DNA of 64,000 bases, taken from Gadus chalcogrammus. Taxonomy: Eukaryota > Chordata > Actinopteri > Gadiformes > Gadidae. Numbering within the stretch: the first letter of the stretch is position 1; each line of letters starts with the position of its first letter. Where the stretch lies: assembly GCF_026213295.1 (NCBI RefSeq), contig NC_079420.1:13180374-13244373 (forward strand), written 5' to 3'. Position numbers and translations under genes: made by a program. Shown piece by piece: positions 8,519-63,068 of the stretch. The notes under the pieces were generated by a model, which was given only the letters and a program-made list of their open reading frames with translations, ran no database searches and had not been told where the DNA came from.

Positions 8519-11500
8519 AGGGAACTTGAGGGAGGCAGTTAAGTTTGTGGCAGACATGCAACTGAATATCATGAGCTTTTTTTAAATAATATGAAATCAT
8601 GGCGCTGTAGGCTTACGTCACTATTTTACACTTCGATTAAAAAGTAAAACTCAAATATTATTGAATTAAATGAATGCAGACGATATTTTGGTGCAAAGGA
8701 CATAGGACAAGGCTAAATTAGGTCAAGCCATCTGTCCATTTGTGGCGCATTTCATCGCTCATTCACAAAAACAGTAGCCTACTTGCTTTGAAAAGTAACT
8801 CTTGTAGCAAGAGGTTGTATATTGCTTTTTCGTGACTTTGCTGTAGCAAAAGTGGCACACCTTATTCTTCCTGATCCTACGACTAACCCAAAAGAGCTTG
8901 TAAGTCTGCCTATTCCGGTAGACCCCCATGGGACCTATGAGATCGTAAATATGAATGGTTTTCAACAGAGAGAAAGTAATTATTTTCTGGCTCCATTCTA
9001 TATAGTCCCTGGATTACACATATTTGTGGATTTAAATGATAATTTTTCATGCAAAGAAAACTAAACATTTTCATGAAGAAGTTTGATAATGTTAGGTTTT
9101 TTCCAAGGGGAGGATAACGAAAGAGGTGAAAACCATTATAAGTTGAGGCATGTGGAGAGTTTCAGTTATGCCGATGGGGAGATTGTCGGTCTTGTCCACG
9201 CCAGTCGCAGGGAGCGTGACGTCACATACAAGACCTGTCCTCTGTGGCCTGAAAAGGGGGGTCATGGTCAACTGGAGCTTGGTGCACCTCTCTGGACCGA
9301 GTCCAGCTGATCAGGTTTTACACTGGCCCATCAATCCACTAACGGCTATGGTTAGGTTTAGGGGTCCGGTTGATGGTTAGGTTAAGGGGTAAGGGTTATG
9401 GTTAGGTTAAGGGGTAAGGGTTATGGTTAGGTTAAGGGGTAAGGGTTATGGTTAGGTTAAGGGGTAAGGGTTATGGTTAGGTTAAGGGGTAATGGTTATG
9501 GTTAGGTTTAGGGGTCCGGTTGATGGTTAGGTTAAGGGGTAAGGGTTATGGTTAGGTTAAGGGGTAAGGGTTATGGTTAGGTTAAGGGGTAAGGGTTATG
9601 GTTAGGTTAAGGGGTAAGGGTTATGGTTAGGTTTAGGGGTCCGGTTGATGGTTAGGTTAAGGGGTAAGGGTTATGGTTAGGTTAAGGGGTAATGGTTATG
9701 GTTAGGTTTAGGGTAAAGGGTAAGGGTTATGGTTAGGTTAAGGGGTAAGGGTTATGGTTAGATTTAGGGGTCAGGGTAATGGTTAGGTTTAGGTTTAGGG
9801 GTAAGGGTTATGGTTAGGTTAAGGGGTAATGGTTATGGTTAGGTTTAGGTTAAGGGGTAAGGTTAGGTTAAGGGGTAAGGGTTATGGTTAGGTTAAGGGA
9901 TCAGGGTTATGGTTAGATTTAAGGGGTTAGGGTAGGGTTATTTGTAGGTTTAGGGGTCAGGGGAGGGTTATGGTTAGATTTAGGGGTCAGAGGAGGGTTA
10001 TTTGTAGGTTTAGTGGTCAGGGTAGGGTTATTGGTAGGTTTAGTGGTTAGCGTTATGGGTTAAGGTTAGGGTTATGGTTAGGTAGAACGGAACCGTGGCT
10101 TCATAGATGCTACTCGAACATGCGCTAACAAGTTTGAGTTGGGGCGGGGCTGGACCTCAGCCGGGGGTGCAGCTGGACCTAGAGGCGGAGCTGGACTAGG
10201 CAAGCTCCACCCATTGGCTCTGCAGCCCTTCAGATAAAAAGGACTCAGGAGGTAGATCTGCAGTTGGATCCTAACCCTCGGTCGAATAGCTTGCAGAAAC
10301 TCGACAAATCCAAAATGAACATACCAGTTATCGATTTTAGTCTGTACAACCTGGGAGAAAATAGTGTTTTAGACGAGCACCTTGTCGACTTGGGCAGGCG
10401 ATTAAAATCCTCATTTACAGAAATTGGTTTTGTTTATCTGAAGAACACTGGGATTACACCAGAAGAGGTAAGCGCAAGCCTCGGAAAATATTTTGCTGAG
10501 CATCACAAACTTTGTCACGGATATTTCATACAAATTGAGGGAACTATTGAAAAGAAAGCAAAAATATGCAACATTATCACAACATACATTAGAAATAAGC
10601 TCAAAACATGTAAAAAGGGGCTATTATTTATAATCTTAAAGTGATTTTTAACTTCATAAACAGAGTGTATTAGCCTGTTCGTCTGGCGGAAACAGAGTTC
10701 TCTATGACACGAAAAGGATTTGCTCAATAGAGTATTCTGTATCTATGTTATGGTGGTTTTTGCAAAAATATAGATTCTTTTTTTTATTATTTGTGCGGCT
10801 GTGAAAAAATAAATTAAAGAAAGGAGTGTATGTGATCACATTATAATCGTTCTATTCTTCGACCTGTAATTTATATATTGCTGCATTTACTTAGTAGTTG
10901 ATCCCTAAATATCAGCAGGAAAAGTGCATCACAGCTCGAAATTAAAAGCTGTTTATTTGGAATATCATTGATAAAGTGTGTGATACTAAGCAAATTAAGA
11001 GTGTTAAAAATCGCCAGATGTCTAGCTTTTACATCAAGACTAATCTGGAAGCAATCTGTTCTCCTTTCAAGGAGCCTTTTCTGTTTTGCAAAAGAAAAAA
11101 GATAGAAACCAAAATAAATAAGTACTGTGTTTTACCATTTGACCCAGAATCATGGGTCATTTGACACAACCTAGAGTGTAATGAACTCTACTGCTGGGTT
11201 AAATGTGACATGCATTGGGTTATTTCAGAATGCTGGGTTGTGAAATGTGGAGTGAAATAAATCTATTGCGGGATTAATATTGACCATACACTGAGTAATT
11301 TACTGTCTCCTTTCCTTGCTACTTATCATTGTTGTGTAATTATAATAATTTCCCATAATCACACGATTAAAAAAAAAGGCCAATGTTAATAAATGAATGA
11401 AATTATTTTATCGAACCGTTTTTTTTACAGCTCAAAGTCATACTATGCATGTTTTTTAATTCATTCCAAAAACAATTTAAATGTACCGCTCAAACAAATG

Positions 11501-41126: not shown

Positions 41127-44100
41127 TCACAATTCATGCCCTTTGGGTCTGATCATCATTGTAACCGTTTTAAAGGACTGCCTATCATTAGTCAGATAAT
41201 ACTCTGTTGAAATGTTATGCCATGTCCCCCAAAAAATCCCATCTCTGACCCCTTTATACTTTCCTACATAATATCTTCCGTTGAGGTTGGCTGCCATGCA
41301 GGCATCAAACCACCACCCTGAGCTGTAGTACGCCCCGCAGTTCCCAGACGGGTATCGGTCATTGTCTCTGTCTAGGGTGGTGAACGCCTTGTTGTTGTGG
41401 TCGTAGTTTCTGCTGAACCTAAGGGCATCGCCCGCGGACCCCGAATAACCCCCTACGGTCAGGCGGTAGCGCTGCCTCTCGCTCGCCACCCTGAATTTCC
41501 CGTACTCGGCGTGTTCTCTCAACCCTTCGAAGTCCTCCAGCTCCACTCGGAGAACCATGTCCCTGGCCCGCGTCAACAAGTGGATCTTCTCATTGCCCAG
41601 CCAAAACTCTCCTCCGTTCATTTCCCCGAATCCCTCGCTGTACTCGACCCACGTCCGGTTGAAGCTCACGCTACCGTCCCGGCGTCGTTGAATGACCGTC
41701 CAACCTCCACCTTGGTGCTCCATGTCGCAGAACACGGGGAAGGTGCTCAACCTGGGGTCAGGGGTCACCAGGTGGAGGCCGGTTGTTTGATCCCCTCTGT
41801 TGAGATGTTCGGAACAGTCCCTGGGTGCCCTGGGTACTATAGGTCAGGAATACAAATCACTCCAAAATTATTTACCAAGATACATTAAGGGGGAAGGGCG
41901 CGAGAGAGATAGAGAGGGAGAGGAGAAATGAGAGGAGAAATAATGGGTCTGCAAAGGGTCAAAATTCCTTTATACATTAAAAGCCCAAAGCTACCCTAGG
42001 TCGTAAAACGGCTTACACAAGTTCATTAAATGGATATCCACTGGTCTGAAGTCCAATGAACTGGTTTGCTTGGGCCTGAGCAACTTTGAGTTGTTACTTT
42101 GTTTGTCATTGGCTGCAAGCTCGAAACTGGACTGAGGAGGGCCCGGTTAAAGGATGCCTTACAGCTGTTTAGTCTGAGTCAGCCAGAGCACTGTTGGATT
42201 CCTGCACGTTTCTCCCGCTGCTCAGAGATGTGGTAAACACATGGGCAAATTAAAAAATCTCCAACATTAAGTGGTTTGATTTTATAGTAATTCTACAGAA
42301 AATGCAATCTACAATCTACAGAAAATGATGAATACAGACATTTTTGTTATTATCGTTAATTATAATAAACATGAAACATGTAACAATGACTCTTCTTCTT
42401 TTCTAGAATATTTTCCAATTATCCAAAGGGATAATTGGACAATAATTTAATTGTTATAGTTTCTGATGTTGTATCATATTTTAATATTACTTTTGAAATA
42501 TATCAGTATATTCAATTGGCACTCACAAATATGTATGTGTGTGAATATATATATATATATATGTCATAAGTGTCTAGGTCATTATCTTATTAACAGTTAG
42601 GCTGATTAACATGATTTCATGATTTCCACTGTTTCCTATGCAAGCTACTATTCCATCTGGTACAAAAACACATTAGATACTGACCAAAATAAGTGTTGCA
42701 GTTAAAACCATCTTCACTAGGATTATATTCTTGTTAATTATACATACGCTTTGATGATGGGAACATCGGGTGCCGGCCATCTGTTGAGTGGGGCTTTTTC
42801 CCTCCCTGCTTGAGGCTGACCTTTGGAGGAGTCTTTTCCATGAGCTCATTCTGGGGCTTTACATGCAGGCTGGCATCGGGGAACGCCACCACCTGGTTGA
42901 TTTTGACCCGCATTTCACGTGTACTGGGAGTAGTTGACGGAATGGGGGTGAGGGTGAGCCCTGGGTTGGTGCGTCCTGGACTGGGCGGGAGGGCAGGCCG
43001 GGGCAAAGGGTGAGGGGTGTCTGGGCTACGGAGTTCTGGGTTACGGAGTTCTGAGCTACGGAGTTCTGGGTTACGGAGTTCTGGGCTACGGAGTTCTGGG
43101 TTACGGAGTTCTGGGTTACGGAGGTCTGGGCTACGGAGGTCTGGGTTACGGAGGTCTGGGTTACGGAGGTCTGGGTTACGGAGGTCTGGGTTACGGAGGT
43201 CTGGGTTACGGAGGTCTGGGTTACGGAGGTCTGGGTTATGGAGACCTGGGTTAATGCCGCCTCCGATAGTGACTCGGTTACTGTCACCTGTGTTAGTGTG
43301 GCCTGGGTTAATGCCACCTGTGTTAGTGTGGCCTGGGTTAATGCCACCTGTGTTAGTGTGGCCTGGGTCACGGCGGCCAGGGTTAGTATGGCCCGGGTTA
43401 CTAGATTCTCCTAGGTTAGTGTGGCCTGGGTTACTCTGGACTGGGTTATCGTCACCTGGGTTACTGTTGCCTTGGTTACTCTGGCCTGGGTTATCGTCAC
43501 CTGGGTTACTCTGGCCTGGGTTATCTTCACCTGGGTTACTTCGGCCTGGGTTACTGTGGCCTGTGTTAGTGTGGCCTGGCTTAGTGTGGCCTGGGTTAAT
43601 GTGGCCTGGTGTATTGTCAGCTGCGTTACTGTGACCTGGGTTGCTGTGGCCTGGGTTAGTGTAGCCTGGGTTAATTGTCTCTTGTATACTTTGACCTGGG
43701 TTACTATCACCTTTGTAACTGTCACCTGGGTTATTGTATCCTGGGCTTAGGGTGGTGATTCGTCCTGGGATATTGTGTCCTAGTTTGGTGATGATTGTAG
43801 GGCTGGTCCAAGGCCATGAGTTGGAATGTCCTGGGTTAGGGGTGGTCTTGGACCCTGGGTTGGTAGCTCCCGGTCTGGGGGTGGTCTTGGACCCTGGGTT
43901 GGTATCTCCCGGCCTGGGGGTGGTCTTGGACCCTGGGTTGGTACCTCCCGGTCTGGGGGTGGTCTTGGACCCTGGGTTGGTATCTCCCGGCCTGGGGGTG
44001 GTCTTGGACCCTGGGTTGGTACCTCCCGGTCTGGGGGTTGTCTTGGACCCTGGGTTGGTATCTCCCGGCCTGGGGGTGGTCTTGGACCCTGGGTTGGTAC

Positions 44101-47100
44101 CTCCCGGTCTGGGGGTGGTCTTGGATCCTGGGTTGGTATCTCCCGGCCTGGGGGTGGTCTTGGACCCTGGGTTGGTACCTCCCGGCCTGGGGGTGGTTTT
44201 GGACCCTGGGTTGGTACCTCCCGGTCTGGGGGTGGTCTTGGACCCTGGGTTGGTATCTCCCGGCTTGGGGTTGGTCTTGGACCCTGGGTTGGTACCTCCC
44301 GGTCTGGGGGTGGTCTTGGACCCTGGGTTGGTATCTCCCGGCTTGGGGGTGGTCTTGGACCCTGGGTTGGTTTCTCCCGGGCTGGGGGTGGTCTTGGACC
44401 CTGGGTCGGTACCTCCCGGCCTGGGGGTGGTCTTGGACCCTGGGTTGGTACCTCCCGGCCTGGGGGTGGTCTTGGACCCTGGGTTGGTATCTCCCGGCCT
44501 GGGGGTGGTCTTGGACACTGGGTTGGTATCTCCCGGCCTGGGGGTGGTCTTGGACCCTGGGTTGGTATCTCCCGGCCTGGGGGTGGTCTTTGACCCTGGG
44601 TTGGTATCTCCCGGGCTGGGAGTGGGAATGGTCCCGGGTCGTGGGTTGGTTTGTCCCGGGCTGAGAGGGGGGATGACATTCTCTATGGAGCTGTTAGCAG
44701 ACACATCGGGCTGTTCTGTTGTGTCTGAGCTAGCTGTTGCGTTTGGTTCTGTAGATGCTATCAGAGGAACGTTATCTTCAGGTATGTAGTTCAGCCTTGG
44801 GCTAGTAGTTGATTGGGTAGTTGCCTTTGATTTGAAATCGGAGACTGTCACCCCCTGTGCATAATGACTAGTGGAGGTCTCTGGGCTCTGTGTGCAAATA
44901 CGCATTTTCCCGGTGGAAACTTCCATGTTGCCTTGGGATGATTCCACATCAATGCGGACAGGAATGGCAGTGGGTCCGATCCTTTTCACTTTGTCAGAAC
45001 TCATTCCTGTGTCGTGTGGATTAAGTTTTACTACAGGTCTTGGTTTGAACCTTGCTGGTATTTCGGGATTATGTCCATCACTTCCGTCTGTCCTGGGTCT
45101 GTGTGGAGGCTTCTCTTTGGGGACTTTGTCCGACCCTCTCTTGGCTTTTGGATCAGGTTTGGGATATGGCGGTGCTGTCACATGATCAAGATTATGATTG
45201 GGGCCTATTAGTGACCGGCCTTGATTATATTCTGCATCAACTAGTATTTGCCGATTTGGTTCGGTGACAGGTGCAATTGATCCTGAATTATATATCGACT
45301 TTTTGGTCGATAAAAGGATTAGATCTGGGTCAGCATCCGGATCAGGCGAAATATCTTTACCAATATCAGACTCTAATACACTTCCCGGCTTACGTTTTGG
45401 TGTAGAACTTTTTAAATCTTTTTTATGTTGTGGTCCACGGCTTAGTTTAGGACTTTGGTTAGGCTTAGTTCCTTTGTTATTTTGGGGCTTTTTATTTGTT
45501 GAATGGTCGATATCAGGTTTTTCTTTTTTGTGGTCAGATTTTGGCCTTTGGTTTGAGGTCAAATTAGTTGTAGAATGATTCAGATGAATTTTTGGATTCT
45601 TAGACGGAGGCTTAGGCTTTGGATGGGAGGCTGGCTGTAAGCCCAGAACAGGCTTGGTGTTGACTGCAGACTTTTTGCCAGAATTAGATAGTGTGTTGGA
45701 ATCTAGATCAGTGGGAGCCGGCCTTGTGCGTTTCCTTTCCATCTCTCCCTTAGGGAAAGGGATTTTGTCTTTCTTATTATCAGAGGATACTTTTTTTGGA
45801 TGTCCCTGTTTAGGTTTTGATTGTTGTTTGGGCTTTTGATATACTTTGGCCCTTGATCTGGTTTCAATTTTAAGAGGGTCTTCACTGTAGTAGTGAAAGG
45901 ACTTGTGGTGGTGGTCTTGTAATTCAAGACAGTGGGCAAACTATGACTAGAGTAAAAGGGTGTCAGAACCTCAAATGCTGAACCAATGCTATTGTAGGAG
46001 CTAACCTGTGGCTTCAAGGTGGAAGTGGCTACAGTCCCTGGCTGTCCAGTTCTCCTCATTGAGCTAGCTGCCGATGTGGTCATGAGCAACCATTCCTTGG
46101 TCTTCAAGTCAGTCTCAGTGCCTGGGATCGTCCCTTCTTTCCTTGGTGTCTGGATTCTTAGTCCTGGTTTTGTTTCGGATGTGGACCGGTTTGCTTTAGT
46201 TTTGTAGGGAGGAAGATCCCCTGGCTTGTGAAGTAGACCCGGGCCTTGATTCGCTGGTCCAGATCCAGGTGTCCTAGTCTCAGGTTTATGTTGAGTTATT
46301 AGTCCATATCGAGGGGTCTTTGTTTCAGGTGTAACATGATTCTGTATTTCAGATCTAGGTGTCCAAGTCTCAGGTTTACGTTGAGGGACTAGTCCAGATC
46401 TAGGTGTCTTAGTCTCAGGTTTACGGTGAGGGACTAGTCCAGATGTAGGTGTCCAGGTCTGAAGTTTACGGTGAGGGAGTAGTCCAGATCTAGGTGTCTT
46501 AGTCTCAGGTTTACGTTGAGGGACTAGTCCAGATCTAGGTGTTTTAGTCTCAGGTTTACGTTGAGGGACTAGTCCAGATCTAGGTGTTTTAGTCTCAGGT
46601 TTACGTTGAGGGACAAGTCCAGATTTAGGTGTTTTAGTCTCAGGTTTACGTTGAGGGACTAGTCCAGATTTAGGTGTTTTAGTCTCAGGTTTACGTTGAG
46701 GGACTAGTCCAGTTTTAGGTGCCTTAGTCTCAGGTTTACGAAGAGGGACTAGTCCAGATATAGGTGTCCAAGTCTCAGGTTTACGGTGAGGGACTAGTCC
46801 AGATCTAGGTGTCTTAGTCTCAGGTTTACGTTGAGGGACTAGTCCAGATCTAGGTGTCTTGGTCTCAGGTTTACGTTGAGGGACTAGTCCAGATCTAGGT
46901 GTCCAAGTCTCTGGTTTACGTTGAGGGACTAGTCCAAATCTAGGTGTCTTAGCCTGAGGTGTACGTTGAGTGACTAGCTCAGATCTAGGTGTCTTGCTGA
47001 CTTTCTGTCCTCTCAGCCCTGTATTATCACCCTCTTTTTTTTCCTCCTTCAGCTTCTCTCCAGCCCCCTCTCCTCCACTCTTTGTTGTATGTTCATCCTT

Positions 47101-48144
47101 GTTCCTCCCAGTGACGTCATCTAGCTTTGGTTTGTCATAGTTTCTCTCCCGTCCCGTTTCTTTCTCTTGGCGGTGTGGCGGTGTGTTGGTCACGGTACGG
47201 TCCTCTCTCGGCCGCGCCTCATCCCTCTCCCAGACCTTGCCCGAAGGCTTTCCTTCTTTCTGCATCTCATTTGGATCGCTCCACAGATGCCCACCATTCC
47301 CTGTAGTCCCCATTTCCTCCCTGTCTTTGTCATCATCCCTCCTCATATTCTTCAGCATTTCCTTTCCTTGGACGGATTCTTCCTCTTTCTCAGTTTCTAC
47401 CTCTTTTCTTCTGTCTTTCTCTTTGCCAGCTATCTTTCCCCTCACCTCATCCTCTCTGCTGCCAGCTGGGGCGCTTATCTCTCTAAATGTACTCCGGTCG
47501 ACAGCCTGTCCTGTCTGTCTGCTGTTATCTACACCTTTATTTCCCTTGTCTCCTTCCTCACTTCCTTCTTTCTCTCTCTCTTTCTTAACGATTTTATCTA
47601 TCCCTCGCTGGTCTACTATTTTCTCTCTGCCTCTGTCCTCCAACGCCTTTTCCCAGCCTGGGTCTGTGTTTCCAGACACCCAATCTTCCACCTTGTCCAT
47701 TCCCCACTCTTCCCTCGTCCTATTCCTTGTCTCTGAAACTCTCGCCAAGCTCTGCTGTGGGTGGTTATCCTTACCCCTCTCTCGGTCCCTCGGTGTCGCC
47801 TCCTCTCCTCTCTCATTCTGGTTCCCTGTACAATCCCCACAGCTCCTTCTGAGCTGATCCACTGTGTCCTTCAGCCTCTGGATCTCCTTCACAATCTCGT
47901 CCAGATCCTTCAGCTGTTTGGGGAGCTGAACAGTGAGGGGCGGCAGGTGAACCCAGTAGGTGCACGTGTCCTGGTCCTGTCCACAGGTGCCCGCGGGGGT
48001 CAGAGTCACAGCACACGGGCCTTCAGCTCCCATAGTCCAGTGGAGGGCTGCCGGCTCTTCGTCCCAGCCTGCCGTGGTCTGTTGCAGGTAGGACACAAGA
48101 GTGAAACAGTATATGCAGAGTGCTGCTGCTGTTCGCCTCATCAT
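41127..48144 (-). CDS. fgl2: Fibrinogen-like 2 homologue with giant repeat insertion
   Basis: The start ATG at 48144 opens a signal peptide (ALCIYCFTLVSYL). The FGL2 N-terminal block follows: HLPPLTVQLPKQLKDLDEIV, a short coiled coil, then CGDC at 102-105, matching the CxxC that cross-links mammalian FGL2. A repeat region of about 1,600-1,700 residues then runs to 42748: Glu/Lys-rich, 15-residue repeats, Lys/Pro-rich, 13-residue repeats, pentapeptides. A phase-1 GT-AG intron (donor GTATGT, 41837-42747) joins exon 41127-41836, a complete C-terminal fibrinogen domain (CDMEHQGGGWTVIQRR, DNDRYPSGNCGAYYSSGWW, GIFWGTWH, MMIRPKGHEL). Human FGL2 is about 439 aa; this protein would be about 2,000. The reading frame shifts by -1 between 45948 and 45703. 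Either a one-base error in the A7 run at 45791-45797, a 137-bp intron (45749-45885) or frameshifting is needed. Both repaired lengths fit the downstream exon phase. Confidence 0.82.
41837..42747 (-). other. Intron before the fibrinogen-domain exon
   Basis: AT-rich, with a short (AT)n at about 42547-42562. Donor is GTATGT, acceptor is CCTATAG. Phase 1 continuity gives SSK-L-PRAPRDC. Confidence 0.85.
43017..43250 (-). repeat. 15-bp coding minisatellite (NPDLR/NPELR pentapeptides)
   Basis: About 15 head-to-tail copies of a 5-residue unit, NPDLR drifting to NPELR, SPELR and SSELR, inside fgl2. The unit length is a multiple of 3, so copy-number change keeps frame. Confidence 0.95.
43251..43745 (-). 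repeat. Degenerate NPGHT/NPGQS pentapeptide array
   Basis: Glycine-proline pentapeptides such as NPGHT, NPGHS, NPGQS and NPGDD make up this 0.5-kb part of the fgl2 repeat region. They are more diverged than the flanking arrays. Confidence 0.85.
43828..44625 (-). repeat. 39-bp coding minisatellite (NPGSKTTPRPGGT), about 20 copies
   Basis: Twenty near-identical 13-residue units with sense NPGSKTTPRPG(G/D)T. The G and D variants alternate in an ordered way over the 5' half of the coordinates, suggesting a 78-bp higher-order unit. The unit is rich in Thr and Pro, like a mucin stalk. Confidence 0.95.
46250..46990 (-). repeat. 45-bp coding minisatellite (SGLVPQRKPETKTPR), about 16 copies
   Basis: Sixteen 15-residue units with the consensus SGLVPQRKPETKTPR, degenerate at both array ends (RFGLVPQ..., SEIQNH..., YGLITQ...). 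The array lies in the upstream frame of fgl2, before the frame shift. Confidence 0.95.
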
Positions 48145-51100
48145 GTCTGCAGTACGCAGACCAATATAAGAAATGGATAGGGAGAGACAGAGGGACAGGA
48201 GCGTAGAGATGAAGAGGGTTGGTGGGGAGGGGGGTGCTGAGAGTGTGGGAGGATGCAGAAAAAAGAAAACACCCACCTCTGTTTGTGAGAGTCTGTGATA
48301 GTATGAAGGAAGGTTGGGGAAGCAGAGAGAGAAAGAAGTGGGGAAATAGAGAGGGGTGTGTAGACATGATAAAATTGCGTCAGAGAGTGTAGGATGAAAG
48401 TAAAACGATTTTAAAAATTGGACAATCAAATCTGTTGAAAACAAGTTGTAGTTTGATATACATTTATTGATATATTTCAGGTAAGACACAAGATTTAATA
48501 TTTAAACAAGATGTGGCATATATTTTAAACGTATCTAATTCTTACCAATACCCTAGTATTTATCAGACTAATCAAAGAGCATAATGGTGTAATACGTTCT
48601 CATTCCATGATGTCATATTAAACCCATATTATAGCTCATTGTTAATCACGTCTGTTTGCAGTATGTGACAGTGCTTTGGCAGGCCCGTCCCACGTTTCCT
48701 GTCAATAAGTTGCAGACATATGAGGATCAGATGCGATGGGTCAAAATATGCATTGGAAGCACAATATCGTCGGCTTGGTGAGGAGCCAAGGGTATGTTGT
48801 GGTTTTCTCTTGGGAGATATGAATATAATGGTCCTTATTCATTGTGGGGGTGGTTGTTGTTCTGCTTGTAGATAGAGACACCGTGAGGAAGCAGGATCAT
48901 CTGTAGTGACTCTCTCTGAGACATCTGCCACTCAGATTCAACAGCAAGTCTGAGCTCATTTGCCATCTTATTAAACATACTTTTCAGGGACTTTTAAAAC
49001 CCACATTTGCCGTGACCAAAATAGCAGCTCTCTCATCTTTAAATGCCACTCTGCCAGACTTTGGAAGTAAAGAGACCATCCTGCGAAATGACACACTGTA
49101 TGGTTAGGTCTAAGGTGGATTGTTCAAGATAATCCATGCATTGCATAAAAACCAAAGACTCATCAAGGTTATAATTAAGTGCTGGATAACAGACATTGGT
49201 TTATTTCATTGTTTGATTGGCTGTCTCCACATGACAAAGGAAAACATGGATAGAATAGAATAATAAATTCATAATGAATTGCAAAAATGTCCTATTTATA
49301 TATACAAAGATTGTAAGAGCTAATATTTTGATCACATCTACCCCACTCAGAGCAAATCCAAGTGCAGAGATCCTGTTGCTTACAATACAAAAGGTGGCTC
49401 TGTATAAGTTCACATCTGTTTATATCTGTAACAGCAGTCGTAGCTTGGTGTTGCGCCACACTGTTCAGGCAGTGGTCCGCTTTGACGTTGGCCAACTGTT
49501 GCCAGGGACGGGAAATAACCCAGGCGCTCACCTGCCATCGGGAAATAGTGTGAGAGAAATGTTTACACCCGCAAGAGACTTGTGTCGAAAAAGCTAGGCC
49601 ACGGTGATTGATTATTACCGAAGAACATCTCCACTAAGTATAATCTCCAAGGCATTAGCCGGTCCGCCACAACAACACACCCACCGACAGAGTGTTCTGC
49701 TGAGGTCATGGGTACGTGAAGTGCCCTTCAGAGCTCCACATTACCACGGCCGTTGAGAGGTGGATGGCAGCAGACTCTGAGCTGGCGTTTTACGATCCGT
49801 TCCACTGCATTGTGAGAGGAGCGCACGGTGTTGCATTTGATAATGTCATCTCTAATGGAGCCATCCATTTATGGGCAACTACTTTTTTTGAAGTCCTCTT
49901 GTGAAACAATGTTTTGAATAAGCGCAGTAGGCTCCTCCGGCCCACTAGCTACCAAGTCTTGTGTAAACACGCAACGCTTTTTCCATGGCGGGTTGAACAA
50001 ACATCTGAGCATCAGTCTGACTGTCTGGGCTCTCCGCCGCCCCCCCCCCCCCCCCCCCCCCCCGTCTCCATGCACATCATGCAGCGCAGCCCTCTTCTCC
50101 TCCTCGAGTCTGGGGAGAGCATAGGTGTCCCGTTCCCTGGTGGACCAGAGTCAGCACATGTGCTATAGCGTCGCTAACACACAGAGCTGCATCAGACAGG
50201 CTAAAAGGGTTATTATCGGAATCAGAATTCAGATAAAAAAGATCATAGTTCTTAGAGGGGGAGATTTATTTCTTTAGTAGTCGAATTTAATAAACTTAAT
50301 CTCACACAGACATACATGCCCTCTACATTTCATAAACCCATAAATTGGCCATTAGTTTAATATTTTTCTGTAGATAATTAGACGTTACACATATCTAACA
50401 CATCAAATCTATCAAACGGAGAGGGACCAAGTGTCCCTCACATCTGGATGGAATTTGAGACGGTCATCAGCAGATAACATGAGGTCCAGTTTCTCTTCCA
50501 AAAGACTGGAGTTCATTAACAATTTGTTGTTCGATAATTCTTGACACACAATTTGGTCAAGGATGGATAATAATTAAATGATGTGTTCGTTTAAGTCACC
50601 CCTTGGAATGGCACGGAACAGGACCTGTCATCAAAAGGGGTCTTTGCCCCCTCAGTTGTATTTTTTGCCCCTCTGTTTAAGCTAATGTATCTATAGAAAG
50701 ATAGCAAAACAACAGTTAGTGGCGGAGATACATTTGACTATCGCTTAGGCTGTTATTACAAAACAAAAGCCTTTAACAGCTGATTCCACACGCCTCCCCC
50801 TGCTATCCCCATGGTGATAAATAACGAAAATGTTTAGCACTCTGCTAGTGCTATATAGACGCTTTGATTTATAGCAAAAAAAATTGGGGATTTTGAAACT
50901 GTAGCCTTATGCTGTTGTTATTTAGCCTTTCCGAGGCTATGCGTGGTCAATCCAGCAATTATATTTTATGAAAAAAAATGCACCTTCTCAAAATGAAGTC
51001 ACTCAATCCTGGCGCAGGGCCAGCATGGGACGCTTGAGGATCTAGGAATCAAGAGAAGTGATGGGTATAACTTTGAGGAACATCTTTGCATGTGCTTGTG

Positions 51101-58200: not shown

Positions 58201-60875
58201 CAACAAGCCAGCACGTCAGGAGCAGTTAGGGTTAAGTGTCTTGCTCAGGGACACATCAACACCTAGTTAGGAGGAGCTGGGGATTGAACTAGCAACCTCT
58301 CGGTTACAAGACAACTGCTCTACCTCCTGAGCTAAGCCATCCCCTTTTCGTAATCTCTGCAGTTATTTTGGAATCCAATTGTGAAACCTTGGACGCCCAC
58401 ATGATGCATGAATGCTTGAATCACTTGAAGTAGTAAACACGGAAGTAAGGCGGAAGGTAGTTTGTCGACGTCAGTTCAAGACGCCACTGATTGGTCAAAT
58501 TTGCGGGAAAGTTGCGTTGGTTGGTTAAAATTCCGACACCGCACTTAATTCGCAGTGATTGGTTGATGTTGCGTTGAAGTTGCAAATCGCAGCATCGCGA
58601 AATCCTGGAGGGACTGCTTATTGCAACGGATGTCCGTTGAGCTCCCCCTCCTCCCAGCGGTTAATATCCCGGTGTTGTCTGTAGCCTACAATGTGGTCAA
58701 ATTAGTTTCCTCTGCTACTCTCGTCCCCCTCCACAGTGTGTGCAGTGGATCGACGATGCCAAGCTGAACCAGCTGAGGAGAGAGGGAATACGCTACGCTC
58801 GCATCCAGCTCTACCACGACGACATCTACTTCATACCCAGGGGAGTGGTCCACCAGTTCAAAACGGTGTCGGCCGTCTGCAGCCTAGCCTGGCACATCCG
58901 CCTCCGGCAGTATCACCAAGAGGAAGAGGAGGAGAAGGGGGAAGATGAGACGCTCACGCCGACACGGTCGCCGCTTCGACTCGATGAGGAAGAGGACGAC
59001 GAAGATAATGACGATGATGGCGAGGAGGAGGAGGAGGACGACGACGACGACGACGAGAGAGATAGGACAAAGGACTGTCACGCTCGTTCGAAGATGTCAC
59101 CAGACTTTGGTGACAGAAGAAGAGAGGGCTGGAGGGACCCCTCTTCGCAAGGACACACGGGGGTCTACAAGGAGGAAGAGGTGGAGACGGACGGGAAGCC
59201 GCCAGCAGACGACTGCTCGCCCACGCCCAGTCTAGACCTCATCAAGAAGGAGAGGGAGGATGGTCTGCTTGCAGAGAGCCTAATGGAGGTTACACCCAAA
59301 AAGGAGAATGGGGAGGGGGTTGGGGGAGGCCAGGGAGAGGCCAGGGATGCAGCCACTCGGACACTATATAAAGGGGTAGTAGAGGAAGGAGAGGCTGGTG
59401 CTCCCTGGACGCTACAGCACATCAAAAAAGAGCAAGATGTGATAGAGGAGAGGCCGCAGAAGCCTACTCTCAAAGAGGAGAGGCCGCAGAAGCCTACTCT
59501 CAAAGAGGAGAGGCCGCAGAAGACTACTCTCAAAGAGGAGAGGACGCAGAAGCCTACTCTCAAAGAGGAGAGGACGCAGAAGCCTACTCTCAAAGAGGAG
59601 AGGACGCAGAAGCCTACTCTTAAAGAGGAGAGGCCGCAAAAGCCTTCTCTCAAAGAGGAGAGGCCGCAGAAGCCTACTCTAGCAGAGGACAGGCAGCAGA
59701 AGCCTACTCTGGCAGAGGACAGGCAGCAGAAGCCTACTCTGGCAGAGGACAGGCAGCAGAAGCCTACTTTCACAGAAGATAGGCCGCAGAAGCCTACTTT
59801 CACAGAAGAGAGGCCGCAGAAGCCTACTCTGGCAGAAGAGAGGCAGCAGAAGCCTACTCTGGCAGAAGAGAGGCTGCTACAAAGCCCGGGTGTGAGAGAG
59901 AAAGCTAGAGAGGATTGTACAGGCACTTGCGTACCATCAACACCAGTCAGAAAGGATAAGGAAAAGGTAAGGGCCAAAGATAAAGAGGAGAGGGAGAAGG
60001 GGAAAGACAGGGAGAAGAAGGAAAAAGAGAGGGGGAAAGAGAAGGAGCGGGATAAGAAAGACAGGCCCAAGGACCGGGAGAGAGACAAGGAGAGGGTCAG
60101 GGAGAGGGAGAAAACCAAACCTGTGGGTGTGACCTTGACACACCCACTGATCCAAGTCAAGAAGAAGGAGGAGGACGGGACGCGAGAGGGCAGTGGTCAC
60201 TCAACGCTCCCCTTTCAGAAGGAGGACAGGGGGTCCAAAGAGCCTGAGTCGGCCTCCAAAGCGCCGTCTCAGGTCAAGAGAGACAAGGAGCATGACAAAG
60301 AGCGGCCCAGCGCTCCGCCTCACACCAGGCCGGAGAGGGAGGACTCTAAAGAGGGCAGCTTGCATCGACACAAGCCCTCCCACGGGAAGAAGGAGAAGAG
60401 CAGCCACAGGGAAGGGAAGGACAGCCAAGCCCGGAGCAAGACGGCCAGAGAGGACGGAAAGCCAGGCCCCCTCAAACAAAGTCACGTCAAGAAGGAGGGA
60501 AAGAAGGACAAGGAAATCAACAACAAGGAAGAGCGAAAGAAGACCAACGCCGCTCAGGGTTTTGCTCCGCCGCCCGACCACAAACCCACACCACGAACAC
60601 TCATCACCTTTGACCTCTTCAAGCCTATGGACGCTCACCAAACGCTGCCTGTGTCCTACACAGACACGCGAGTCAAGAGTCACCATCACGGTGAATCGCG
60701 AGGCACGTCCGGCTCCAGGTTCGGAGCGGACAGTCGGACATTAACGCCCTCAAAAGTACCCAAAGCTAAGGACCCAAAGCAGGCGAAAGCCACGCCGAAC
60801 TCTGAGTCCCAGCTGTTGTTAAAACAGCCCCTTAAACCACACACCCCCCAAACCCAGAAGGACTTTTTAATATGA
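52237..60875 (+). CDS. rsbn1l: Round spermatid basic protein 1-like, with extended tail
   Basis: Eight exons: 52237-52711, 52948-53067, 53211-53893, 55342-55479, 56801-56943, 57144-57311, 57414-57525 and 58737-60875. They total 3978 nt, giving 1325 aa; human is about 846. The N-terminus is basic and low-complexity. The conserved RSBN1 core spans about residues 310-650: [106 protein letters not shown]. Family members are JmjC-like nuclear proteins related to C. elegans DPY-21, an H4K20me2 demethylase. Beyond the core, exon 8 adds an Asp/Glu run, fourteen 10-residue repeats and a Lys/Arg/Glu-rich domain. Exon 6 has a TAGCAG tandem acceptor; the second AG gives the family sequence. Synteny with tmem60 favours rsbn1l over rsbn1. 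Confidence 0.93.
53894..55341. other. rsbn1l intron 3
   Basis: No gene or recognisable mobile element; a short (CAA)n lies near 54533-54551. Confidence 0.5.
55480..56800. other. rsbn1l intron 4
   Basis: AT-rich intron; no feature was recognised. Confidence 0.5.
57872..58402 (-). pseudogene. CGGBP1-like zinc-finger pseudogene (transposon-borne)
   Basis: A candidate ATG at 58402 opens a short frame. The SINE inserts at about 58345-58093, and the zinc-finger part follows down to a stop at 57872. The frames on the two sides of the SINE do not join cleanly, so there is at least one further lesion. CGGBP1 is known to derive from a hAT transposon, which fits the terminal repeats here. The zinc-binding Cys and His residues are still present. 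Confidence 0.65.
58093..58345 (-). mobile_element. tRNA-derived SINE nested in hAT-like element
   Basis: Read on the minus strand, the head is tRNA-like. It has A box TAGCTCAGGAGG (58323-58334), anticodon-loop-like CTTGTAA and a B-box-like AGTTCAATCCCC (58279-58290). The body follows, then a tail GGATAAAAGCGTCTGCTAAC with TGTAAATTGT, typical of L2-clade-mobilised fish SINEs. The anticodon position reads TGT, suggesting a tRNA-Thr ancestor. A possible AAAAG target duplication flanks it. Confidence 0.78.
59445..59864 (+). repeat. 30-bp coding minisatellite in rsbn1l ([10 protein letters not shown])
   Basis: Fourteen tandem 10-residue units, consensus [10 protein letters not shown], grading to [10 protein letters not shown], at about residues 850-989 of rsbn1l. 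The repeat is frame-preserving and highly charged. Confidence 0.95.
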
Positions 60876-62663: not shown

Positions 62664-63068
62664 TCATTCCCTTCTGTAGTGGAACACGCTGTGACCCAGT
62701 TCTACTAACGCCCCAACCAACAGGGTCCAGAGAGGTATGCACACCACGCTCAGCCAAATGTCCGTGAGCTTCTCCAGGCGGGAACACAGCGCCAAGCAAA
62801 AGCCAAGTTTCAGCAGCAGTGCTATGAGGTACCACATTGTGCGCGGCAGGTTCTGATGTCCATCTCGCGGGTTCAACGCTTGTTTACAACGACCTGCCAT
62901 CCTCGCGACCAGCATGAGGATGAGAATCGCGTCAAAGGTCCAAATGGGAAGGAATATGAGAAACCAGTTCCAGTCGATATTAGAGTCCAGCTTGAGAACC
63001 AGCATGATGAGGAAGACGAGGGCAAAAAACCAACTCAGCAGCACCCGCTGGACCAGGGACATTTTCAT
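62664..63068 (-). CDS. tmem60: Transmembrane protein 60
   Basis: A single-exon gene of 134 aa; human TMEM60 is 133. The N-terminus MKMSLVQRVLLSW matches human MRMSLAQRVLLTW. Four hydrophobic segments are visible: FFALVFLIMLVLKL, WFLIFLPIWTFDAILILML, WYLIALLLKLGFCLALCS and LSVVCIPLWTLLVGALVELG. The MAGRCK loop between segments 2 and 3 is conserved. It is a small multi-pass membrane protein of unknown function. Its position tail-to-tail with rsbn1l is the same as in human 7q11.23. The second methionine (two codons in) is a possible alternative start. Confidence 0.95.
   Translation of the reverse strand: MKMSLVQRVLLSWFFALVFLIMLVLKLDSNIDWNWFLIFLPIWTFDAILILMLVARMAGRCKQALNPRDGHQNLPRTMWYLIALLLKLGFCLALCSRLEKLTDIWLSVVCIPLWTLLVGALVELGHSVFHYRRE

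Follow-up and report, generated by a model that had tools for sequence, protein, structure and literature searches.

Which kind of gene begins with the amino terminus of FGL2, ends with a fibrinogen domain and places a very long repetitive stretch between the two? The question is raised by positions 41127–48144 (minus strand) of a 64,000-nucleotide stretch of the walleye pollock (Gadus chalcogrammus) genome, contig NC_079420.1, positions 13,180,374–13,244,373, hereafter called the window. The analysis described below leads us to conclude that the locus is probably fgl2b, an FGL2 paralogue in which a single giant exon codes for a disordered tether of great length.

FGL2 Ends Joined in One Gene

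A first-pass annotation of the window had recognised an FGL2 signature, a CGDC motif and a complete fibrinogen domain at this locus, and all three are borne out: residues 1–105 (47830–48144, minus strand) hold the signature HLPPLTVQLPKQ...SCGDC, and the fibrinogen domain matches Pfam PF00147 (E 1e-84) over profile positions 2–221 of 221. Splicing from the donor (exon 1 ends at base 42748) to the acceptor CTATAG/ (exon 2 starts at base 41836) preserves the phase, and the product reads ...PSSK-L-PRAPRDCSEHL across the junction; database proteins of pollock, Arctogadus and Boreogadus share this junction. Since both ends lie in a single protein in Arctogadus and in Boreogadus, they belong to one gene, as had been supposed. 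The layout of the gene is given in Table 1.

The joined protein has 2,035 amino acids (aa), 1,699 of which make up the insert; an insert of about 1,600 residues had been proposed, so its presence stands and its size is corrected. The joined translation agrees with its description as a Thr/Pro/Lys-rich stalk between the two ends (Ser and Thr account for 339 of the 1,699 residues). Coordinates and copy numbers were obtained for the consecutive 15-residue, 13-residue and two pentapeptide arrays that had been noticed, and the period of each of these four arrays of exon 1 (45, 39, 15 and 15 bp) is a multiple of 3, as claimed. The second CxxC motif of mammalian FGL2, suspected to be missing, is indeed not there: no CxxC was found in the 1,699 residues of the insert, whose single Cys is at position 1084.

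Table 1. Features of the pollock gene; positions are those of the window.
Feature	Position	Strand	Remarks
Exon 1, coding part	42748..48144	-	ATG at 48144; donor GC/GTATGT; two frames in the assembly
FGL2 N-terminus, aa 1-105	47830..48144	-	hydrophobic leader, LPPLTVQLPKQ, coil, CGDC
Charged Glu/Gly/Arg/Lys block, aa 106-381	47002..47829	-	joined translation
Array of 15-residue units (KTPRSGLVPQRKPET type)	46257..46995	-	45 bp x 16.4 copies
Ser/Pro/Lys/Thr-rich linker, without strong arrays, contains the frame break	44626..46256, limits approximate	-	
Frame-break site (GATCAAGGGCC)	45848..45858	-	one base short of what Arctogadus implies
Array of 13-residue units (TNPGSKTTPRPGD type)	43839..44625	-	39 bp x 20.2 copies
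Pentapeptide array, NPGHT type, degenerate	43276..43745	-	15 bp x 31.1 copies
Pentapeptide array, LRNPD type	43019..43253	-	15 bp x 15.7 copies
Conserved stretch preceding the fibrinogen domain, STREMRVKINQVVAF...	42748..42940, limits approximate	-	
Intron, GT-AG, phase 1	41837..42747	-	junction common to P0004, P0005, P0006
Exon 2, fibrinogen C-terminal domain and stop	41127..41836	-	PF00147, E 1e-84
Possible in-frame optional intron within exon 1, 2,186 bp	44734..46919	-	candidate; Boreogadus model P0004 jumps likewise

Spread of the Insert among Relatives

A protein search with open reading frame 1 (ORF1; P0002) among candidates of about 447–1,422 aa returned one match, Boreogadus P0004. 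When the fibrinogen part of P0004 served as query against proteins of about 680–2,166 aa, 387 of 858 candidates matched, and 120 of these matches were listed and studied; each row of this set stands for a protein and not for a species, and some rows are isoforms that share a gene. BLAST detected the FGL2 N-terminus in 95 of the 120; the 25 without it include the pollock model P0006 and the differently built sea anemone protein P0007. Every one of the 95 listed relatives having both FGL2 ends carries an insert at this place, and in every one it lacks CxxC. When the window is added (96 rows), insert length ranges from 398 to 1,838 aa (median 1,125.5), the fraction of Pro, Thr and Ser from 0.24 to 0.38, and that of charged residues again from 0.24 to 0.38. 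An insertion confined to cods was therefore dropped as an explanation, and the first-pass view of a local change to a mammal-like FGL2 gave way to that of an fgl2b-type gene. Of 121 rows, 15, including P0007, have strong tandem arrays, whose periods range from 10 to 57.

The ends of the protein are conserved, and its middle (about residues 400–1,650) finds no match beyond the gadids when the statistics allow for composition. With composition-based statistics and without masking, the number of matching proteins, out of 117 non-gadid relatives with any match to the pollock protein, falls from 86 to 18 over residues 1–400; only 0–2 match residues 400–1,700, and 38–117 match the last linker and the fibrinogen domain. 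With low-complexity masking the empty stretch extends over residues 200–1,725, except for one protein; masking alone could empty the middle, and the unmasked repeat of the search partly matches the charged block up to about residue 400. When the composition correction is left out, ca. 70–95 proteins match over the whole length. Since nearly everything matches under the latter settings, the likeness is one of composition: as judged by BLAST, the insert middles are similar in composition and not in alignable sequence.

Two alternative features stand directly before the fibrinogen domain. An RELRVKINQ-like motif (REMRVKINQ in pollock) occurs in 88 of the 120 listed relatives and a CxxxC pair in 29, all from carps, loaches, characins and catfishes; the two never occur together, and three relatives have neither. 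In 68 rows the N-terminus is present and CxxxC absent; two Cys lie within the first ca. 100 residues of the insert in 49 of these, the remainder having one (10 rows), none (5) or three (4).

Composition and Arrays of the Pollock Insert

Block limits and net charges were taken from a joined reading that differs by about 20 residues from the final join after residue 764; in this reading the charged block (residues 106–381) has a net charge of −6, the 15-residue array (382–626) +39, the Ser/Pro/Lys/Thr linker (627–1155) +30, the 13-residue array (1156–1436) +27, the pentapeptide stretches −5 (1437–1633) and −1 (1634–1709), and the last linker (1710–1804) +9. The charged part (828 bp) and the ORF2 linker (1,173 bp) were each open in 0 of 2000 Markov-sampled sequences, and a shorter linker piece (408 bp) was open in 8 of 2000. 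A Pfam Pentapeptide_2 match (E 3.2e-7) was set aside as mere likeness of five-residue repeats.

Counted by one pattern, 13-residue units number 20 in pollock, 11 in Arctogadus and 25 in Boreogadus, so that the length differences foreseen for the arrays are seen between species. Among the listed relatives, TNPGSK units are confined to three gadid proteins and the window.

Possible Optional Splicing and the Broken Reading Frame

Exon 1 is not one open frame, a point missed in the first-pass annotation. In the assembly it consists of two overlapping frames, ORF1 (48144–45706) and ORF2 (45940–42737), and a literal translation of ORF1 gives 764 genuine residues followed by 49 out-of-frame residues and a stop, without reaching the fibrinogen domain. 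The Arctogadus glacialis protein P0005 is open throughout (...LLKLKPDQRAKVYQKPKQQ...), a single reading of 1,844 aa with the same parts as in pollock. Because P0005 reads through there, the loss of one base in the window was placed at GATCAAGGGCC (45858–45848). The pollock database protein P0006, a 'mucin-2-like' model of 1,234 aa, has exactly the sequence of ORF2 (from MERKRTRP onwards) joined to exon 2; it begins downstream of the break and lacks the FGL2 N-terminus. For the single frame break we favour an error of the assembly, or else an allele, in a gene that works otherwise.

Splicing could alter this picture if an optional, exitron-like intron within exon 1 took up the greater part of the 15-residue array and of the linker. 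The main pollock product would then have about 1,306 aa, its stalk would be shorter, and the frame break would be spliced out. The Boreogadus model P0004 makes such a jump (VPQ/PNSDTTEQ), and the window has GT-AG sites to match (the intron would start at base 46919 and the exon resume at 44733), with which the frame is preserved and 1,306 residues result; the candidate donor sequence occurs 9 times in the 15-residue array, always in the same phase. In isoform pairs of Perca and Etheostoma, 221 and 198 residues, respectively, are lacking within the insert, whereas in a third pair, from Sphaeramia, the difference is less simple and not a clean removal. However, the sequence preceding the candidate acceptor is not pyrimidine-rich, the Arctogadus annotation runs straight through the candidate intron, and gene predictors may invent such introns to bypass frame breaks, and reads mismap in repeats. 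The jump of the Boreogadus type fits both real splicing and an annotation artefact, and we regard an optional intron of this kind as unlikely, if worth keeping in mind. Thus, the expectation that the repeat region is not spliced out holds as far as the single gene and the Arctogadus model go, and fails for the Boreogadus model, which removes part of the region in frame.

A less probable course of events is decay, in which a genuine one-base deletion is common among pollock, the product is truncated before the fibrinogen domain and the gene is being lost. The break is present in the assembly outside any long single-base run, and the pollock database model starts only after it. On the other hand, loss of a single base is a frequent assembly error, and downstream of the break the frame stays open throughout and continues without a shift into exon 2. 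Identity of the fibrinogen domain to those of Arctogadus and Boreogadus is 98.3–98.7%, although these are close species and little time may have elapsed. Programmed −1 frameshifting at a 7-A run (45790–45798), our first idea for connecting the two frames, was suggested by the A_AAA_AAG form of the run and its place in their overlap, and it can be practically discarded, as Arctogadus places the change elsewhere and is already in the second frame upstream of the run (RAKVYQKPKQQSKPKQGHPKK).

Probable Identity of the Paralogue

In the gene's own genome, the only other match to the FGL2 N-terminus is a copy on C19 with 51% over residues 39–105. Its frames hold LPPLTIQLPKQ...SCQGC, a coil piece that ends in STCTTQC and, split into three pieces, a fibrinogen domain; the half of this copy that was scanned for tandem repeats (L012) has simple repeats only and no arrays of the kind seen in the window. 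The copy looks conventional, and we would name it fgl2a, with exon limits that are likewise predicted. A tree of fibrinogen-related domains (FReD; 17 rows), which is not rooted by outside data, is compatible with the C19 copy as outgroup. Among the matches listed, several proteins of cyprinids and loaches and one of a characin are annotated as fgl2b, many others being annotated otherwise. Because the second chain-joining Cys pair (184 and 187 in human) has no counterpart in pollock, we consider the gene a diverged paralogue and not a standard FGL2. A PDB search with the fibrinogen domain returned FGL1, ficolins, angiopoietins and others; one with the N-terminus returned nothing useful.

With the position equivalent to Ser89 set by a human alignment that we presume to be correct, the window has Gln, and Ser is absent from the rows that a pattern was able to place, 45 of 124 (39 Q, 3 E, 2 R, 1 H). 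Ser89 is required for the prothrombinase activity of mammalian FGL2 (PMC5356913). Since Gln is found at this place and no placed row has Ser, prothrombinase activity would not be expected in the pollock protein.

At the start of the fibrinogen domain there is an RGD (LNRGDQ; residues 1813–1815 of the joined protein, in exon 2, 41127–41836). It occurs in 6 of 124 rows, namely the window, the pollock protein, Arctogadus, Boreogadus, P0126 and the rockfish P0019; many other rows have RGE or RGK at the LNRGDQ place.

Points That Weigh against This Reading

Several points count against the gene being an fgl2b with a functional tether. The pollock gene is known here from genome sequence and gene models, its frame is broken in the assembly, and the database model omits the N-terminus. 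Comparison of array copies yields no clear purifying selection on the exact units, because the ratio of nonsynonymous to synonymous changes (pN/pS) is in part about 1 (1.00 for the 15-mer, 0.63 for the 13-mer, 1.13 for the degenerate 5-mer) and shifted frames are partly similar to the true one, the 13-mer array giving 0.53 in one of them; among copies of the LRNPD array synonymous changes are zero. Gadid genomes are moreover generally repeat-rich: in Atlantic cod, tandem repeats are present in 17,800 coding regions of 7,372 genes, and 12% of those repeats are heterozygous in the sequenced fish (PMC5241972). The arrays fit this background, as it is described there, and a special cause is not needed.

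The main search was blind to proteins below 680 aa. A search with the N-terminus among proteins of about 173–551 aa gave 3 matches in 61 candidates, of which P0124 and P0125 have no fibrinogen domain, whereas P0126 holds both ends in 437 aa, with a short insert of TNPRSK repeats. The AlphaFold2 model of P0126 is poor overall (mean predicted local distance difference test score, pLDDT, 51.5), and in it the RVKINQV motif is not structured; its helix at 52–79 and its pLDDT below 50 throughout 81–202, on the other hand, count in favour of the tether reading.

P0126 is named 'fibroleukin' and labelled Lepidogalaxias salamandroides. Its fibrinogen domain is 89–90% identical to those of three gadids and 65–80% to those of five other teleosts, and it groups with gadids in the FReD tree (support 100/99). 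With its gadid-like repeats it looks like a gadiform protein, and its label may be wrong; so may its gene model, since its first residues match window positions 49448–49537, outside the gene. In P0125 (Coryphaenoides), the FGL2b N-terminus is followed by TQATVTQV-type pentapeptides that resemble the pentapeptide array of the window in another frame; this is possibly a wrong gene model.

Other Features of the Window

An ORF at 62667–63068 (minus strand) matches Pfam Tmemb_185A (E 3.1e-11) and presumably corresponds to TMEM60, and a 736-aa ORF at 58665–60872 is, we assume, RSBN1L; both names were given to these neighbours by eye. RSBN1L and TMEM60 lie next to FGL2 in other vertebrates, so that neighbours of this kind would fit the FGL2 neighbourhood. 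The 736-aa ORF contains, in frame, the second coding array of the window (59444–59874, plus strand, 30 bp, 14.4 copies). A TAAGGGTTATGGTTAGG-type array with periods of 25 and 75 bp is located at 9340–10068, with strong GC skew around it (0.659 in 9001–10000). No Rfam match was found in the window.

A Putative Tethered Ligand

If the locus is fgl2b as proposed, the second half of the FGL2 coil region and the second Cys pair would have been replaced by a long Pro/Thr/Ser/Lys-rich disordered tether, its middle filled in gadids by 15-, 13- and 5-residue arrays. The protein would be secreted, with the N-terminal coil and CxxC linking the chains; the tether, basic in most blocks, may be open to O-glycosylation and might allow the fibrinogen domains a wide range, so that several targets are bound together, as the connector of the fibrinogen alpha chain would suggest. 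A long multivalent ligand, as proposed in the first-pass annotation, would be the outcome, and such a function is suggested by analogy. Selection would then preserve the length and composition of the tether more than its sequence. Much more tentatively, and with some doubt, one can propose that fgl2b is a distinct secreted class in which lineages rebuild the tether, kept for its length and composition, from fresh arrays, and that the length of the arrays, which would vary among individuals, sets how far an immune or wound-associated ligand reaches and what its valency is.

What has been found is a known family in an unusual form, with an insert that is widespread in teleosts and anonymous in its middle, and it offers a clear case of a coding exon with a replaced middle and fixed ends. 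Owing to the low complexity of its longest part, the paralogue seems to be filed in databases under names such as mucin-2-like, titin-like or proteoglycan 4-like. Should the predicted protein indeed be produced, fishes would provide a natural series of tethers of ca. 400 to 1,800 residues between the same ends, with which the effect of tether length on a fibrinogen-domain ligand could be tested. Judging by titles and abstract openings, nothing in the literature searched treats this insert; the whole word 'fgl2b' was not found there, and 'fgl2a' does occur.

Comparison with Known Systems

The pollock protein shares with mammalian FGL2 the leader, the LPPLT.QLPKQ coil, the first CxxC and the C-terminal fibrinogen domain. 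The Cys pairs of this domain (1807–1836 and 1966–1979 in pollock; 206–235 and 364–377 in human, PMC5356913) have the same spacing of 29 and 13. The two differ in that the joined pollock protein of 2,035 aa (ca. 439 aa for mammalian FGL2 in the first-pass annotation) has 1,699 extra residues and neither the second CxxC nor a recognisable second coil. Human FGL2 forms tetramers whose chains are joined via Cys 94, 97, 184 and 187, and as a single chain it is more immunosuppressive than in oligomers (PMC5356913); in zebrafish, IL-10 targets fgl2a in macrophages following injury (PMC9489698).

Mucins and proteoglycan 4 have similar Pro/Thr/Ser/Lys-rich repeats, possibly O-glycosylated. Gel-forming mucins carry von Willebrand D and cystine knot domains, and proteoglycan 4 carries somatomedin B and hemopexin domains; no mucin or proteoglycan 4 domain was found in a Pfam scan of P0001–P0003 at E 0.1, and we take the mucin and proteoglycan 4 names of the relatives to rest on low-complexity likeness.

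In the fibrinogen alpha chain, too, a coil is followed by a disordered connector with tandem repeats, and in its long form a fibrinogen domain follows the connector. Unlike that chain, the pollock protein has an FGL2-type N-terminus and a much longer connector encoded in one giant exon. The human alphaC-connector has ten 13-residue repeats, whose number and period vary among species, and it contributes to fibre flexibility (PMC8745514).

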